Assembly (NCBI GenBank): GCA_019239895.1 | Contig: JAFAZH010000039.1 | Span: 1 to 64,000, forward strand | Origin: Abditibacteriaceae bacterium | GTDB lineage: Bacteria; Armatimonadota; Abditibacteriia; Abditibacteriales; Abditibacteriaceae | Length of the DNA: 64,000 nucleotides | Direction: 5' to 3' | Part shown: positions 33,184 through 41,288 of the stretch, in pieces | Numbering within the stretch: the first letter of the stretch is position 1 | Layout: every line of letters starts with the position of its first letter | Position numbers and translations under genes: made by a program | Notes under the pieces: generated by a model | Told to the model about the DNA's origin: nothing | The model's input: the letters and a program-made list of their open reading frames with translations, nothing else | Database searches by the model: none

Positions 33184-33911
33184 TGCATTTTCCTTATTTT
33201 CTGATAAATTCTTTTGAAGCGCGGTTAAACATCGTCAGCTTTATTAAAATTTTCTAATAAACCATTTGGTTTTAAGCCCCGCAACTCCAGCTTATGCCCA
33301 CCGCATAATAGCCTTAGTAGTCTAACGCGCCCGCTCCCACGCGGCAACTCCCCATCAGAACCTGAAAATCAGCCCTTAATCTGGATTTCACAATTCTTTT
33401 TTACAGGGCTTGCGAGGGGGCTAATTCGTGCTATAATTTCGTGCTATAGTTGTAGCGAATTAAACACTCAATCAAAGCCTTGCATCACACCCCGGAGCCT
33501 TCTGGTTCCACTCGCAGCAAACGAAGTTCGAGCGTTTAAGAGCTTAAAGTAACGGGATTAAAACAGGTAATCAGTTAGCAAGCTCTTTTCAAGCTGCGCC
33601 CCTTCACGCGTCACTTGCTTCACCGTAGAAGCAAGTCTAGACTCACAACTTATCCATGCCTGGGGATAAATATAGGGAAAACTTGCTAAAGGTACCCTTC
33701 GCCGTTAAGCTATATGACGGTTTCGCATAATTTTGGCGCTAAAAAGCCTCTCTAAACCGTCAAAAACTATCATAATGGGGATTTTTGGCCAGGAATTAGC
33801 AGTTGTTCAGCGGGATCAATTAATTATCCGCATCACAAGTTCATAAGTTAAAAATATCTTTAAACATCGTCTTCATTGTCAGCAAAGGTTGAAGCAGCCA
33901 TCGAAAACAGC
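33184..33911 (+). other. Upstream half of the replication origin and dnaA leader
   Basis: This 728-bp gap between divergent rpmH and dnaA has no gene. It holds a DnaA-box-like pair facing each other (TTATCCATG at 33650-33658 and TGGGGATAA at 33661-33669), weaker boxes TTATGCCCA (33292-33300) and TTATCCGCA (33825-33833), and AT-rich stretches. Two hairpins are visible: ACTTGCTTC-ACCGTA-GAAGCAAGT (33613-33636) and TGACGGTTT/AAACCGTCA (33715-33762). No perfect TTATCCACA occurs here, unlike in the downstream clusters. Confidence 0.7.
33410..33437 (+). promoter_or_regulatory. Candidate dnaA promoter
   Basis: TTGCGA (33410-33415) and TATAAT (33432-33437) with a 16-bp spacer. The TTCGTGCTATA motif around the -10 box is repeated directly 12 bp later. 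It would give a leader of over 400 nt before dnaA, long enough for the hairpins and DnaA boxes to act in autoregulation. Confidence 0.5.
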
Positions 33912-35492
33912 ATGATTACAGGCATCACGAGCGATATGCAAGAGCCACAGGATCACCAAAATGGTCGCTCCGAGCCTGTAGAAATGATGCAGGCAGCCTG
34001 GGACGAAGTGTTAGATGTCCTCCAAGCTGAATTGTCCGGCCCGACTTACAACAACTACTTACGCCACATTAAACCTGTCAGTCTCCAAAGCGACCGTTTT
34101 ACCCTGGCCGTTCCCTCCGATTTTGTTAAAGACTGGTTAGTGCGGCGCTTTGCCACCCGTATCGAAGAAACCCTGGAACAGTTTTTAGGTCGTCAGATCA
34201 GCTTAGGTTTTCAAACCTCTTCTGGCCAGGGTAGTCCCAATAACATAGCGAAAGCCGAGATTCCCCCAGCGGATGAAGAGCTAAAAGATTCCCCGGAGTT
34301 GCGGGTGGCCGAGATACAAGAGGACCTCCAAGCCGAAGCTGCTGCCGCCAGTGCTGCTCAATCTGCACAAGATGCGAAAACGGCTCAGCTTAATGCGCCC
34401 TTTGCCAAGGGTGGGGCTAAACCAGCCCGCGACTTAGCTGGTTTGGAAGATTTTTCCTCATCACCGCTGAATCGCAAATATACTTTTGAGAACTTTATCG
34501 TTGGGCGCAGCAACTACATCAGTCATGCGGCGGCTTGGGCCGTGGCCAATGCACCCGCTAAGGGCCAATATAATCCGCTCTTCATCTACGGCGGCGTAGG
34601 ATTGGGCAAAACGCACTTGATGCAGGCTATTGGCCACTTTATCAACACCAATCGCAGTAGTCCGGCGGAAATTGTTTATGTTTCGGGGGAAAATTTCCTC
34701 TACCAAGTTGTGCGCTGTATCCGTGAAGACCGCATGACGGCCTTTCGGCGCATGTATCGCAACGTGGACATCTGGCTAGTAGACGATATTCAATACATCT
34801 GCAACGCCGAGCGCACCGAAGTCGAGTTCTTCCATATCTTCAACACCCTCTATGACCAGGGCAAACAAATTGTCATTTGTTCGGATAAGCCACCCAAAGA
34901 CTTACAACTCACCGAAAGCCGCCTGATTAGCCGCTTCGAGTGGGGCTTAATCACCTATATCGAGCCACCTGATCTGGAACACCGTATCGCCATTCTGCAA
35001 AAACGGGCGCTGGCCGAAGGCGTGCAAGTCGAACCCGCCGTATTACAATATCTCGCCGAGAAGATTCGCAGCAACATCCGTAGCCTGGAAGGTTCGCTAA
35101 CCCGCCTCTTAGCAATGGCTTCCCTGGATGGCCGCAAGATCAATCTAGACTTAGCAGCCGAAACCGTGCGCTATTACTCTACCGCCGAAGCCGAGCCAGT
35201 CAAGGTGGATGTGGATACGATTATCCAGGTTGTTTCCGACCACTTTAAGATGCCAGTGCGCGACATCCTGGGCAAGAAGCGCAACAAGGAAATTGTCCTG
35301 CCCCGCCAGATCGCCATGTTCCTGGCCCGCGAAATGGGAGCTATGAGTTATCCCGACATTGGCCGCGCTTTTGGTCGTGACTATACCACCGTCATTCACT
35401 CCTACGAAAAGATTAAGAGCGAAGTTAAAAAAGATTCCAACCTAAAAAACGCCATCAGCGAAATCCGCAGCAAAGCCCACGCACGGGCTTAA
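33912..35492 (+). CDS. dnaA: Chromosomal replication initiator DnaA
   Basis: This protein of about 526 residues is DnaA. It has the N-terminal domain I (WDEVLDVLQAELSGPTYNNY), an Ala/Glu/Gln-rich domain II, Walker A GGVGLGKTHLMQA, Walker B WLVDDIQYI and SRLISRFEWG. The C-terminal signature reads AFGRDYTTVIHSYEKI. The base-contacting His of the usual GRDHTTV motif is Tyr here. The start is uncertain: this ATG or a TTG 36 bp upstream (33876); neither has a clear ribosome site. The next gene in line is not dnaN but an Mrr-like nuclease gene. Confidence 0.95.
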   Translation: MITGITSDMQEPQDHQNGRSEPVEMMQAAWDEVLDVLQAELSGPTYNNYLRHIKPVSLQSDRFTLAVPSDFVKDWLVRRFATRIEETLEQFLGRQISLGFQTSSGQGSPNNIAKAEIPPADEELKDSPELRVAEIQEDLQAEAAAASAAQSAQDAKTAQLNAPFAKGGAKPARDLAGLEDFSSSPLNRKYTFENFIVGRSNYISHAAAWAVANAPAKGQYNPLFIYGGVGLGKTHLMQAIGHFINTNRSSPAEIVYVSGENFLYQVVRCIREDRMTAFRRMYRNVDIWLVDDIQYICNAERTEVEFFHIFNTLYDQGKQIVICSDKPPKDLQLTESRLISRFEWGLITYIEPPDLEHRIAILQKRALAEGVQVEPAVLQYLAEKIRSNIRSLEGSLTRLLAMASLDGRKINLDLAAETVRYYSTAEAEPVKVDVDTIIQVVSDHFKMPVRDILGKKRNKEIVLPRQIAMFLAREMGAMSYPDIGRAFGRDYTTVIHSYEKIKSEVKKDSNLKNAISEIRSKAHARA

Positions 35493-35579
35493 ACATCGGC
35501 TATCAGATCGCGTTGAGTATAAACGCCATTTCTTCTGATTAGGAAAGCCTAGGAACACCAGCATAGGTAATCTCATAAT

Positions 35580-37355
35580 ATGGCGAGGCACAGAGGATTT
35601 TTAGGAACTCTAACACAGATACAGCGGGAAGTGGAGCGGCAGGCCAAAGCCCAACAACGTGCCCAACAGCAGGAAATTCGCGCTCAGGAGCGTGCGAGGC
35701 GGGATTATCAACGCGCTCAACTTGCTGATCAGAAGGAACAAGCACGCTTCTACACAGAATCACGCATTCACGAAGTAAGTGAGCTGAATCAGGATTTAGA
35801 AGAAGCCATTCAAGGACTCAAAGAGTTACTCGCTGCGGCCCTTAACACGGATAGTTACCTCGATTTGGAAAACCTCAAAACTAAACCCACACTTGAACCT
35901 TTTAATCCAGGTGCGCTGGCACTAGCAGAAAAAGCTCCTACCTTGGTCAGCTATCTTCCTCCTCCATTATCAGGAATTAATCAACTCCTGCCTTGGGCGA
36001 AAAAAGACTACGATGAAAAGTTGACTGCGGCACACAAACATTATGCGCAGGATGCTTCAAATCATGCTCAAAGAGAATCACTTCGCTGTCAGAATTTAAG
36101 TGCTGCTAAGAAGCAATATGATCAAAAAGTTGTACTAATTCTTGAGCAAACAGCTTCCCAGAATGCCCAGATTGATCATTTCAAAGAAGATTTTGTAACG
36201 GGATTGCCTGACGCTGTAATTGCCTATTTTAAATTGGTCTTAGATGCGAGCAATTATCCTGAAGGATTTCCTCAAGACTCAAAAGTTGCTTATATTCCTG
36301 AATCAAAACAACTAGTTGTTGAGTATGATTTACCTCCATTTGCATTGGTACCGGAAGTCAGTTCTTACAAATACATTAAAGTTCGTGACGAAATCGCTGA
36401 CACCAAACACCCTAACACCGCACGCCGAGAACTTTATAACGGTATAGTTGCTCAAATCGCTATTCGTACTCTCCATGAACTCTTTGAAGCAGACCGAACG
36501 GGGCATTTAGACACAATAGTTTTTAATGGCTATGTTGATTCCATAGATGCAGGCACCGGGAAGCCTATACGCCCCTGTCTTGTAACTGTCCGTACCACGA
36601 AAGATGCATTTAGCCAACTTGACCTAAGCCGTGTTGATCCCATTGCATGTCTAAAATCACTCAGTGCTTCTGTATCAAAAAGCCCGGCTGAACTTGCGCC
36701 TGTGCGTCCCGTTTTGGAGTTCAATATGGTGGACTCCCGCTTCATTGAAGAAAGCGATGTAATTTCTGGGTTAGATAGCCGCACTAATTTAATGGAGCTT
36801 ACACCTGGAGAATTTGAAGCTCTAATTTCAAATTTGTTTGGCAAAATGGGACTTGAAACTCGCTTGACCCAAGCCTCGCGTGATGGAGGCGTTGATTGTG
36901 TAGCTTATGACCCTCGACCTATTTTTGGTGGCAAGGTCGTAATTCAAGCTAAACGGTATAAGCATACCGTTGGTGTAAGTGCAGTCCGTGACCTCTATGG
37001 TACAGTGCAAAATGAAGGGGCATCCAAGGGCATTCTTGTAACGACCAGTGGTTATGGTAAAGCTGCATATCAATTCGCCGAAGGCAAGCCCTTAGAGCTG
37101 TTAAGTGGAAGTCATCTCTTATTTCTTTTAGCCGAACATGCAGGTATAGAAGCCAAAATTGAGATGCCTGATAACTGGAAAGATATAGCACCTGATTCTG
37201 CTGCTCTTGAAGAGAATTTAGAAGACAAAGACAACAGCATAATAGCTACACATGGTCAGTGTCCACAATGCGGTACTATGCGGCCTCTGACGGCTCGACA
37301 TTGTGGCAGTTGCGGAATCAAATTGCCCTGGGCACAAACGGTAAAATCTGCCTAA
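35580..37355 (+). CDS. Mrr-type restriction endonuclease-like protein inserted between dnaA and dnaN
   Basis: This 591-residue protein starts with a coiled coil rich in Gln, Ala, Arg and Glu (about 10-90). The middle (100-390) matches nothing I recognise. An Mrr-like PD-(D/E)xK domain follows (about 405-530): MELTPGEFEALISNLFGKMG, DGGVDCVAYD and VIQAKRYK, with Gln in place of the usual Glu as in Mrr enzymes. A zinc ribbon with two CxxC pairs (CPQCG, CGSCG) ends the protein. Its base composition is clearly more AT-rich than dnaA or dnaN. Mrr enzymes cut modified DNA; this one could do so or act on DNA structure at the origin. Confidence 0.85.
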   Translation: MARHRGFLGTLTQIQREVERQAKAQQRAQQQEIRAQERARRDYQRAQLADQKEQARFYTESRIHEVSELNQDLEEAIQGLKELLAAALNTDSYLDLENLKTKPTLEPFNPGALALAEKAPTLVSYLPPPLSGINQLLPWAKKDYDEKLTAAHKHYAQDASNHAQRESLRCQNLSAAKKQYDQKVVLILEQTASQNAQIDHFKEDFVTGLPDAVIAYFKLVLDASNYPEGFPQDSKVAYIPESKQLVVEYDLPPFALVPEVSSYKYIKVRDEIADTKHPNTARRELYNGIVAQIAIRTLHELFEADRTGHLDTIVFNGYVDSIDAGTGKPIRPCLVTVRTTKDAFSQLDLSRVDPIACLKSLSASVSKSPAELAPVRPVLEFNMVDSRFIEESDVISGLDSRTNLMELTPGEFEALISNLFGKMGLETRLTQASRDGGVDCVAYDPRPIFGGKVVIQAKRYKHTVGVSAVRDLYGTVQNEGASKGILVTTSGYGKAAYQFAEGKPLELLSGSHLLFLLAEHAGIEAKIEMPDNWKDIAPDSAALEENLEDKDNSIIATHGQCPQCGTMRPLTARHCGSCGIKLPWAQTVKSA

Positions 37356-37461
37356 ATACTGACCCTTAAATTGACCTTAAATTGGCTCTAAAAGTTTTCC
37401 CTGTTGGGGTAGGGATAAAGATAGGGAGAGACAGTTACAATTCTAGAAAACTAGTTGTCAA

Positions 37462-37624
37462 TGTGGATAACGGGGAAAAGTGGCCCTATTTATCCCCAGG
37501 CACATGGATAACTTCAAAGTGCCTTAGAGCCAAGCCCTGTATGGAGATTTTGAGGTTGGAAAGTGAGTTATCCACTTATCCACACCCCTAATAATAATAA
37601 GTACTAGAAATATAATTCTAGTAC
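37462..37624 (+). other. Downstream half of oriC: DnaA boxes and DnaA-trio-like unwinding element
   Basis: DnaA boxes: a perfect TGTGGATAA (37462-37470), TTATCCCCA (37490-37498), CATGGATAA (37503-37511), TTATCCACT (37568-37576) and a perfect TTATCCACA (37576-37584). The last two share one base. They are followed by CCCC and four TAA triplets (37589-37600), then the palindrome GTACTAGAA-ATATAA-TTCTAGTAC (37601-37624). Adjacent boxes, a C-rich spacer and repeated trios are the plan of the DnaA-trio unwinding module of Bacillus subtilis. An ORF across this region is rejected. Confidence 0.75.
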
Positions 37625-37665
37625 AGCACTCCTCAACTTTTGTAGCGTATAGGGATAAGCTAAAA

Positions 37666-37917
37666 ATGGAACCAAAAAGAGTCACTTTTAGGAAAGAAAA
37701 TTTGGTAGCCGTTAAGAGCCATCAAAACAGTTCACCAGAACCGCACGAAAATGGTTTAGAGACTCCCCTACCCGACTGGCAAAACATCAGCTTGAGAAAC
37801 GCGGCGCAGGTAGGATTGGTCTGCCCGAATTGCGGGGCGCAGTTGGAAGGTCAAAAGTGCAAGTTGTTCTGCCGCACCCCAGGGTGTGGTTATCTGGTGA
37901 CGTGTAGCGAATGGTAA
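37666..37917 (+). CDS. Small zinc-ribbon protein
   Basis: This 83-residue protein has a disordered N-terminal half and a C-terminal zinc ribbon: CPNCGAQLEGQKCKLFCRT and then PGCGYLVTCSEW. The cysteine pattern (CxxC, then CKLFC and CGY) resembles small conserved ribbon proteins of unknown function. No strong ribosome site precedes the ATG. Its place between the origin boxes and dnaN is notable, but no role can be given. Confidence 0.65.
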   Translation: MEPKRVTFRKENLVAVKSHQNSSPEPHENGLETPLPDWQNISLRNAAQVGLVCPNCGAQLEGQKCKLFCRTPGCGYLVTCSEW

Positions 37918-38093
37918 AGTAGCGGAGGGTAGAGCAGTCTGGTAGGATTCAGGTATAGCTCGCAAAGAAAAGCCTCGAAATTTATTCAGCTTCCACGAAG
38001 CGACACAACCAAAAGACATATAGTACCAAATTAAAAGTCGAAGTTATGCGCAAGAAAACATCTGACGAAAATGGGACAAAAGACGGAGGAGCT

Positions 38094-39191
38094 ATGCGAA
38101 TTACGTGTGAGCGTTCTTATCTGGCGATGGCGTTAGGCGTGGCGGGTCGAGCCGTATCCAACCGTAACACATTGCCGATTCTCAGTAATGTGTTGTTAGA
38201 AACCGAAGACGACCGCTTGAAATTAACGGCCACCGATCTCGATACCGCGATTCGGTGCGTGATTCCGGCGGCGGTGGCCGAAAACGGTGCGGTGGCCGTC
38301 CCAGCCGGGATTCTCAATGATGTCGTTTCTAAGTTGCCCGACGCGCCCGTCACTTTAGAAATGCAGGACGGTAAGGTGACAGTGCGTTGCGGCAAAAGCG
38401 ACTACATGATTTTGTCTCTGCCCGCAGAAGATTTCCCGGTGGTGCCAGAAGTGACCGAGGGGACGGATATTACTCTGCCGCAGGCCACGCTCAAGGGTAT
38501 GCTGCGCATGACGACTTTTGCCGCCAGCAAGGAAGAAACCCGCTCGCTTTTGATGGGCGTGCTCTTTGAAGCCCGCAACAATGCCCTAACCCTTGTCGCC
38601 ACCGATACCCACCGTCTCGCCTGGAAAAGAACGCAATTAGGTGAAGAAGTCGGTCAGCCTGTTACAGCGATTGTCCCGGCTAAGCCACTGGCAGAATTGG
38701 AACGAGTGCTGAAAGATACTGTAGATGATACGGTGCATGTGCGTTTTGGCGCATCCCAGGTGCAATTTGAGACCTCCGATGTAACCCTCGTCTCGCGTGT
38801 CCTGGATGGACAGTTCCCGAATTATGAAAAGGTGATCCCCAAGGGTGCCGAGCGCAAGATTACCTTTGAGCGTGGTGATTTTTTGGATGCCGTGCGCCGC
38901 GTTTACATTGTGGCACGCCAAAACTCGGAAAAGGCGATTGTTAAGACCAAGGGCGACCTGATGGAAATGACCGCCGAAAGCCAGGAGATCGGACGCGCTT
39001 ACGAAGAAGTGCCCATTGCCCTCGACGGCGGCGACATCACCATTGCCTTCAATGCACGTTATCTCATGGAAGTCCTCAACATGCTGGATACCGAACAAGT
39101 CAGCCTGGAGCTAACTGGTGCCTTAAATCCCGGCATCCTCAAGTCTCAGGACGCCGACTTCCTCTACGTCGTAATGCCAATGCAAGTCTGA
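38094..39191 (+). CDS. dnaN: DNA polymerase III beta sliding clamp
   Basis: This 365-residue protein folds as three clamp repeats that form a dimeric ring on DNA. Recognisable segments are RAVSNRNTLPILSNVLLET, VATDTHRLAW and YVVMPMQV at the end. The ATG is chosen because GGAGGA lies directly before it and because the protein then starts MRITCERSYL like the family; an upstream in-frame ATG adds 16 unlikely residues. It is separated from dnaA by the Mrr-like gene, the origin boxes and the zinc-ribbon gene. Confidence 0.96.
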   Translation: MRITCERSYLAMALGVAGRAVSNRNTLPILSNVLLETEDDRLKLTATDLDTAIRCVIPAAVAENGAVAVPAGILNDVVSKLPDAPVTLEMQDGKVTVRCGKSDYMILSLPAEDFPVVPEVTEGTDITLPQATLKGMLRMTTFAASKEETRSLLMGVLFEARNNALTLVATDTHRLAWKRTQLGEEVGQPVTAIVPAKPLAELERVLKDTVDDTVHVRFGASQVQFETSDVTLVSRVLDGQFPNYEKVIPKGAERKITFERGDFLDAVRRVYIVARQNSEKAIVKTKGDLMEMTAESQEIGRAYEEVPIALDGGDITIAFNARYLMEVLNMLDTEQVSLELTGALNPGILKSQDADFLYVVMPMQV

Positions 39192-39193
39192 CT

Positions 39194-39300
39194 ATTGCGG
39201 ATTTCAGATTGCGGATTGCGGATTTAAACAGCACCGTACTCAGTTAATGACTGTGCTTACTGATTGCTAATCCGCAATCCGCAATCCATAATCCGAAATC
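39194..39300. repeat. Palindromic element between dnaN and recF
   Basis: Left arm 39194-39225 (repeats of GATTGCGGATT) is nearly complementary to right arm 39269-39300 (AATCCGCAATCCGCAATCC). It ends 2 bp before the recF start codon, so the hairpin would strongly affect recF translation. Confidence 0.85.
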
Positions 39301-40545: not shown

Positions 40546-40610
40546 TTATCCACAAGCTTTTCCCTGTATATGGATAACTGTGCATAAGGTGGTGAAAAAG
40601 CTGTGGATAA
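40546..40610 (+). other. Third DnaA-box cluster, after recF
   Basis: Perfect consensus boxes TTATCCACA (40546-40554), TGTGCATAA (40579-40587) and TGTGGATAA (40602-40610), plus TATGGATAA (40569-40577), stand in the gap between recF and the DciA-like gene. This is as dense as the cluster before dnaN and may be part of an extended origin, or a site for DnaA-controlled transcription of the DciA-like gene. Confidence 0.75.
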
Positions 40611-40739
40611 AGACAAATACTCCTTAATTCTGCTCGTTGAAGCCGATTTTAGGCCCTAAAAGCGCCTTGACAGTCCTAAATCGCACTCTTGGCACTGCTA
40701 AACTATGGAGAAATCAGGCGGGGCTGCGGATTCATTCTC

Positions 40740-41288
40740 GTGAATATTGTCAGTGATATCGTTGATAACGTTTTAGACGTGCGGGGTTGGCGCGGTAAAG
40801 TGCTTGAACGGATGGCTGTCGAGTTATGGCCTGAAGTCGTGGGTGATCTCATCGCGCATAACACCCTGGCGGAGCGTTTTAAGAGCGGTACGCTCTATGT
40901 GCGGGCACGTTCACCCCAGTGGACACAAGAACTCCATTTTCACGAAGCACGGGTTATTGCCCGCCTCAACGGTCGCCTCAAAAGCAACCTCGTGCAGAAG
41001 ATTCGCTGTTCAGTGACCCCGCCACGCGGCATTAAAGTCGGTGCCCTCAAGCCGAACTGGGAAGACCCTACCTTTCCCGTAGCACCTCCGGCAGCACGCA
41101 ACCTGAAACCGATTAAAGATGATGCAGCGGCAGAACGCGCCAGGGGCATCGCGGCGACGATTGAAAACGAAGAAATGCGCGAAGTAATGGAAAAGCTAAT
41201 CGCCTCTTCAATTCGAGCGCGTGAGTCCAAAACTCCCCCAGACCCTTCGGAAGTTGCGAGTAGACCTCAAGTGAAGAGTGTGGCTTAA
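40740..41288 (+). CDS. DUF721/DciA-like protein
   Basis: This protein of about 182 residues has the DciA/DUF721 N-terminal fold: a helix, then ELWPEVVGDLIAHNTLAERF, SGTLYVRARSPQWTQELHF and IARLNGRLKSNLV. DciA loads the replicative helicase DnaB in bacteria that lack DnaC/DnaI. The C-terminal half is charged and probably disordered. The start is uncertain: this GTG, or a TTG 51 bp upstream. Its position next to recF in the origin region supports the helicase-loading role. Confidence 0.85.
   Translation: MNIVSDIVDNVLDVRGWRGKVLERMAVELWPEVVGDLIAHNTLAERFKSGTLYVRARSPQWTQELHFHEARVIARLNGRLKSNLVQKIRCSVTPPRGIKVGALKPNWEDPTFPVAPPAARNLKPIKDDAAAERARGIAATIENEEMREVMEKLIASSIRARESKTPPDPSEVASRPQVKSVA

Follow-up and report, generated by a model that had tools for sequence, protein, structure and literature searches.

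In B. subtilis and H. pylori, the replication origin is bipartite, and both halves are required in vivo (PMC6669920). In C. difficile, both halves are required for melting in vitro (PMC7561715). For DnaA-trios, a published search rule asks for a DnaA box with at most two mismatches, often in tandem, at 0-16 bp from the repeats, and for a run of three or more in-frame NAN trinucleotides, with the consensus 3'-GAT-5' (PMC8287927). It is also established in several bacteria that DnaA acts on its own gene (PMC8203912). The locus analyzed here is very probably an ordinary DnaA-trio oriC accompanied by a dnaA-linked operator of three DnaA boxes, with a copy of this operator at dciA and a restriction gene inserted between dnaA and the unwinding core.

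The window comprised the first 64 kb of C31, a contig of 109,765 bases in a 60-contig draft genome of 6.65 Mb (G000). It was compared with two further genomes of the family, G001 and G002, giving a family sample of three genomes, all draft assemblies (G002 in about 220 contigs), and with a phylum set of 291 genomes. The minus strand carries yidC, yidD, rnpA and rpmH, and the plus strand then carries dnaA, an Mrr-type nuclease gene, an 83-aa ORF, dnaN, recF, dciA and serS; yidC, rnpA, rpmH and serS are presumptive names, given from the sequence without a family search. The gene context of the putative origin is rpmH-dnaA-core-83-aa zn ORF-dnaN-recF-dciA (Table 1). The 83-aa ORF had no Pfam or PADLOC match; its cysteine-rich C-terminal part is conserved (VCPNCGA...CGYLVTCSEW). 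Rfam gave nothing at the gathering threshold within the window. Between dnaN and recF, at 39194-39299, there is a 31-nt inverted repeat, 87% complementary, made of repeated GCGGATT units. In G001, a short duplicated stretch (L031:7518-7560) breaks dnaA into two overlapping frames, which is probably an assembly fault.

Table 1. Features of the dnaA-dciA region, in window coordinates.
Feature	Position	Strand	Remarks
Candidate promoter towards dnaA, sigma-70-like, TTGCGA-16-TATAAT	33410..33437	+	Consensus match 10/12, sequence only
Upstream DnaA-box triad: TTATCCATG (+), TTATCCCCA (-), TTTTCCCTA (-), starts 0/+11/+23	33650..33681	+	Geometry recurs in relatives
dnaA	33876..35492	+	Pfam Bac_DnaA 5.6e-63, Bac_DnaA_C, DnaA_N
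Mrr-type nuclease gene between dnaA and core	35580..37355	+	Pfam Mrr_cat 3.7e-31; PADLOC mREase_IV 3.5e-108
Core box pair 1: TTTTCCCTG (+) facing TTATCCCTA (-, 37410-37418), followed by a degenerate third box	37395..37430	+	Position kept in three genomes
Two tandem boxes, TTATCCACA (37462-37470) and TTTTCCCCG (37471-37479)	37462..37479	-	Most conserved core stretch
Core box pair 2: TTATCCCCA (37490-37498, +) facing TTATCCATG (37503-37511, -)	37484..37513	-	Near-exact inverted copy of upstream module
Two DnaA boxes beside the trios, TTATCCACT / TTATCCACA	37568..37584	+	
GC spacer CCC ahead of first trio (CCCC at 37585-37588)	37585..37587	+	Invariant in three genomes
DnaA-trio-like repeats on the lower strand, 3'-GAT TAT TAT TAT-5'	37588..37599	-	From sequence; four NAN units (PMC8287927)
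AT-rich palindrome GTACTAGAA-ATATAA-TTCTAGTAC, 9-bp arms, 6-nt loop	37601..37624	.	Inside predicted unwinding element
83-aa cysteine-motif ORF (zn ORF)	37666..37917	+	Family-specific; adjoins core in G000, G001 and G002
dnaN	38046..39191	+	Pfam
Mirror-image DnaA-box triad between recF and dciA, starts 0/+11/+23	40546..40577	-	Kept in G001 and G002
dciA, helicase loader/operator	40689..41288	+	Pfam DciA 3.4e-17

The block downstream of dnaA can be taken, with near certainty, as the oriC unwinding core. It contains nine DnaA boxes overall, including two facing pairs. When the interval before the 83-aa ORF was aligned between G000, G001 and G002, long parts of it did not vary. One is TTGTCAATGTGGATAAC at the tandem-box stretch, identical in the three genomes; the others are the facing pair and the overlapping boxes together with ACCCCTAATAATAATAA. 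The overlapping boxes (37568-37576 and 37576-37584) share one base, and TAATAATAATAA, with its four TAA triplets, occupies 37589-37600 directly after CCCC. The core string TTATCCNNTTWTCCNNACCCCTAATAATAA was found once per genome in the three family members, that is, in 3 of the 291 phylum genomes; there were no occurrences in the other 288, and a reversed control also gave none. A sequence-only reading of this DNA had described two abutting boxes, CCCC, four TAA triplets and a 9-bp palindrome, all of which are present at 37568-37624, and had placed an unwinding core of the Bacillus type behind dnaA. The three-genome alignment, the trio repeats and the low duplex stability agree with this proposal.

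With respect to the published trio rule, TTATCCACA ends at 37584 and the first trio begins at 37588, while TTATCCACT lies 11 bp from the trio. The four units follow NAN in frame, and trios and boxes alike were kept in the three genomes when relatives were checked. The strict 3'-GAT-5' fits the first unit only, and three of the four trios start with T instead of G or A. G013 and G015, two relatives at a greater distance, likewise have such repeats after dnaA. Within the core, the 50-bp window of lowest stability was 37574-37623, which is the second least stable cluster in 110 kb; the least stable window of the core ranked second, first and third on its own contig in G000, G001 and G002, respectively. 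Opening by DnaA at the trios is predicted, and the duplex instability agrees with it. Comparative evidence for an unwinding site at approximately 37574-37624 was strong, and both conservation and instability support the earlier prediction of unwinding at 37589-37624.

The palindrome at 37601-37624 was equalled in 0.06% of shuffles, and its DNA fold had a free energy of -5.4 kcal/mol (z -4.4). A palindrome follows the core in each family genome with different letters, the arms being 9 bp in G000 and G002 and 7 bp in G001; the shuffle frequencies were 0.0006, 0.06 and 0.004 in G000, G001 and G002, respectively. A hairpin acting as a conserved stem was considered and not retained, as the signal was strong in G000, moderate in G002 and weak in G001.

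Upstream of dnaA, TTATCCATG (33650-33658, plus strand) faces TTATCCCCA (33661-33669, minus strand) and ATATAGGGAAAA follows. The TATAGGG at this place belongs to a third box, TTTTCCCTA (33673-33681, minus strand), which the sequence-only reading had overlooked and which makes the upstream module a triad. The triad geometry was observed upstream of dnaA in G001 and G002, in four families of the phylum besides this one (five in all), and also in some Clostridia. DnaA boxes in the dnaA upstream region are kept with the gene, at the location expected of an autoregulatory operator. Beside the mirror-image triad at dciA there is a further box, TTATCCACA, at 40602-40610, so that the whole cluster extends over 40546-40610; the sequence-only reading had not mentioned this cluster either. 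Because none of 30 other dciA loci examined in the phylum carried it, the dciA triad seems peculiar to the family Abditibacteriaceae.

To describe the triad across the class, we used the pattern TTDTCC-N8-GGAWAA-N5/6-GGAWAA, with N6 in its strict form. The 6.65-Mb genome contained exactly two matches, one upstream of dnaA and one, inverted, upstream of dciA. G001 and G002 had both of these and, respectively, one and two extra matches; the reversed control of the pattern gave no matches in the class. The neighbors of the extra triads (G001 C39, G002 C208 and G002 C31) share no recognized replication gene. The strict triad had 19 matches in the 291 genomes. Of these, 11 precede dnaA and point the same way as the gene, one lies immediately behind dnaA, two are at dciA and five fall in other places. 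The 11 dnaA-upstream matches span five families, and those in G004 and G252 lie >1 kb from dnaA. With up to two mismatches, the triad was found upstream of dnaA at 11 of 38 phylum loci (reversed control, 0), a proportion that is not a prevalence because some of the 38 loci entered the set through the triad search itself and a few genomes are present in duplicate. Eight independently fetched Clostridia loci had the triad upstream of dnaA with no more than one mismatch. In a search with looser spacing and strong boxes, the facing boxes of most triads were +11 to +13 apart. Two genomes of family f16, G018 and G061 (L219, L220, L225-L229), carry near-identical triads TTATCCACAGNCTGTGGATAACCTGTGGATAA at several loci each, with spacing that varies by no more than two bases.

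The PADLOC mREase_IV match spans nearly the whole nuclease gene, and the product is likely a type IV methyl-directed restriction enzyme. The Mrr-type gene was not present at the dnaA loci of G001 and G002, and among 61 genomes one only, G025, had a near full-length relative (38% identical). The simplest reading is that of a defence gene acquired at this place by a later, lineage-specific insertion.

The order in G001 is dnaA, core, 83-aa ORF and an FKBP-type gene. In G002, contig C3 carries the core, the 83-aa ORF, the FKBP-type gene, dnaN, recF and dciA near 45.6 kb of its 185.6 kb, and rpmH-dnaA with the upstream triad is found at the edge of contig C181, with no core behind dnaA; rpmH and the FKBP-type gene in this comparison are what we take them to be from sequence. 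The distance from dnaA to the core in this one draft genome is at least ~46 kb, the smallest that the contig ends allow. The box clusters flank dnaA together in G000 and G001 and are on separate contigs in the draft G002. If this separation is true, the triad would travel with dnaA and the core need not be nearby. Directly upstream of dnaN in G002 (L129:10675-10788) there are seven DnaA-box-like sequences, all in the same direction, which do not occur in the window.

GC skew was examined on the origin contigs of all three family genomes as raw, third-codon-position and intergenic skew, and no flip was observed at the core in G000 or G001. The skew in these two is weak, so it cannot decide the origin position. 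In G002, the skew was strong, but it formed local odd domains. A domain of about 100 kb on C3 (46-138 kb; L129, L135-L139) has strong negative skew irrespective of gene strand, and the dnaA contig C181 has positive skew.

The sequence-only reading had proposed a bipartite origin of the incAB-dnaA-incC kind. In a true bipartite origin, DnaA on the triad and DnaA on the core would touch, dnaA and the restriction gene would be looped out, and both halves would be needed. We consider this rather unlikely. In G000 and G001, dnaA is indeed flanked by box clusters (33650-33681 and 37395-37658 in G000), and this part of the proposal stood; B. subtilis, H. pylori and C. difficile offer precedents in which both halves are needed. 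The obligatory split was weakened by G002, where the two halves are both still conserved on different contigs, and by the inverted arrangement, which is not conserved. It is very improbable that the chromosome starts elsewhere and that the cluster is merely a DnaA-regulated locus: the lack of a skew minimum at the core would suit such an arrangement, but the skew in G000 and G001 is too weak to decide, and the unique box-spacer-trio core, its low stability, the dnaN-recF context and the conservation argue against it.

The near-exact inverted copy of the facing pair 33650-33669 that had been reported at 37484-37513 is present with two 2-nt indels, since the reverse complement of 37484-37513 is TTATCCATGTGCCTGGGGATAAATAGGG, which departs from the upstream string by an insertion of 2 nt and a deletion of 2 nt. 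The 16 identical nucleotides and the second box could stem from gene conversion or duplication involving the two clusters, with the likeness maintained for function, and none of 400 dinucleotide shuffles reached the local alignment score of 41. When the boxes were kept and the other bases shuffled, however, 3.25% reached this score (p 0.03), indicating that the likeness comes mostly from the shared boxes; two boxes of the same consensus supply most of the identity. Taken together, the two shuffles suggest a likeness that goes beyond composition, but is just modestly greater than that of any two clusters built from the same box. It is absent from the two relatives compared, G001 and G002, where core box pair 2 itself is kept, and in G002 it is a direct match that links the upstream module to the core. 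The idea that the inverted pair is a design principle was therefore dropped; the near-exact likeness is, on this comparison, a lineage-specific one between DnaA-box clusters, and an origin by conversion or duplication appears doubtful. Improbable, in our view, is that the triad at dnaA and dciA is a DARS-like element recharging DnaA-ADP through head-to-head and head-to-tail boxes. The cores of E. coli DARS1 and DARS2 order their three boxes as the triad does, again with +12 between boxes II and III (PMC5742627), and core pair 1 of G002 has the DARS offset of +14, with a degenerate third box at ~+12. The offset between boxes I and II of the dnaA and dciA triads is +11, not +14, which corresponds to about 100 degrees less helical turn, and Clostridia carry the triad at dnaA, where an operator role is simpler. 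Because its offsets are 11 and 12 versus 14 and 12 in DARS1 and DARS2, the triad was not filed as DARS.

We therefore return to an ordinary DnaA-trio origin with a dnaA-linked operator. The chromosome origin of this Abditibacterium-related bacterium would lie at approximately 37395-37658, upstream of the 83-aa ORF and dnaN. DnaA would bind the overlapping boxes at 37568-37584, pass across CCCC onto the lower strand of the trios, and from there open the AT-rich palindromic element at 37588-37624. Farther upstream, the tandem pair together with both facing pairs may make up the accessory part of the orisome. The triad at 33650-33681 would be a three-box operator belonging to dnaA, and DnaA bound there would most likely control dnaA transcription. 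Since both halves are needed in known bipartite origins, a helper role at the origin is possible, and the upstream triad perhaps also assists it. The mirror-image operator at dciA would let DnaA control the supply of the helicase loader. A further extension, which we put forward only tentatively and think unlikely, is that the fixed-geometry triad is a portable DnaA control device: its dnaA copy would set the DnaA supply and the family's mirror copy at dciA the loader supply, as one switch (possibly DARS-like) independent of the position of the core.

The analysis puts forward a specific oriC, open to experimental test, for a lineage of Armatimonadota that has hardly been studied. The core is conserved even where dnaA has apparently moved away, a natural experiment in which the unwinding core and the dnaA-linked cluster come apart. 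The presence of a triad at both dnaA and dciA points to possible control of the helicase loader by DnaA; in the literature searched, we found no paper on such control.

In the interval from dnaA to dnaN, the locus resembles oriC of B. subtilis (incAB-dnaA-incC), with two tandem boxes, a short GC spacer, repeated trinucleotides and AT-rich DNA; a further box cluster upstream of dnaA is also shared. Unlike in B. subtilis, the boxes here overlap by one base, the trios read GAT-TAT-TAT-TAT and are followed by a palindrome, a restriction gene and the 83-aa ORF lie in the interval, and the upstream cluster is a three-box module. As in oriC1-dnaA-oriC2 of C. difficile, box clusters are present on both sides of dnaA, with trios and unstable DNA only downstream; in the clostridia studied there, oriC1 has 9 to 19 putative boxes (PMC7561715), whereas three boxes and one distant box were found here. 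With the E. coli DARS1 and DARS2 cores, the triad shares one box facing two tandem boxes and the spacing between the tandem boxes, but it differs in the box I-II offset, and DARS are far from oriC and have accessory sites. Finally, DnaA boxes in the dnaA upstream region are a feature in common with the autoregulatory boxes of E. coli, B. subtilis, Streptomyces and mycobacteria, from which the present triad differs in its fixed three-box geometry and in its mirror copy before dciA, as known here from sequence.
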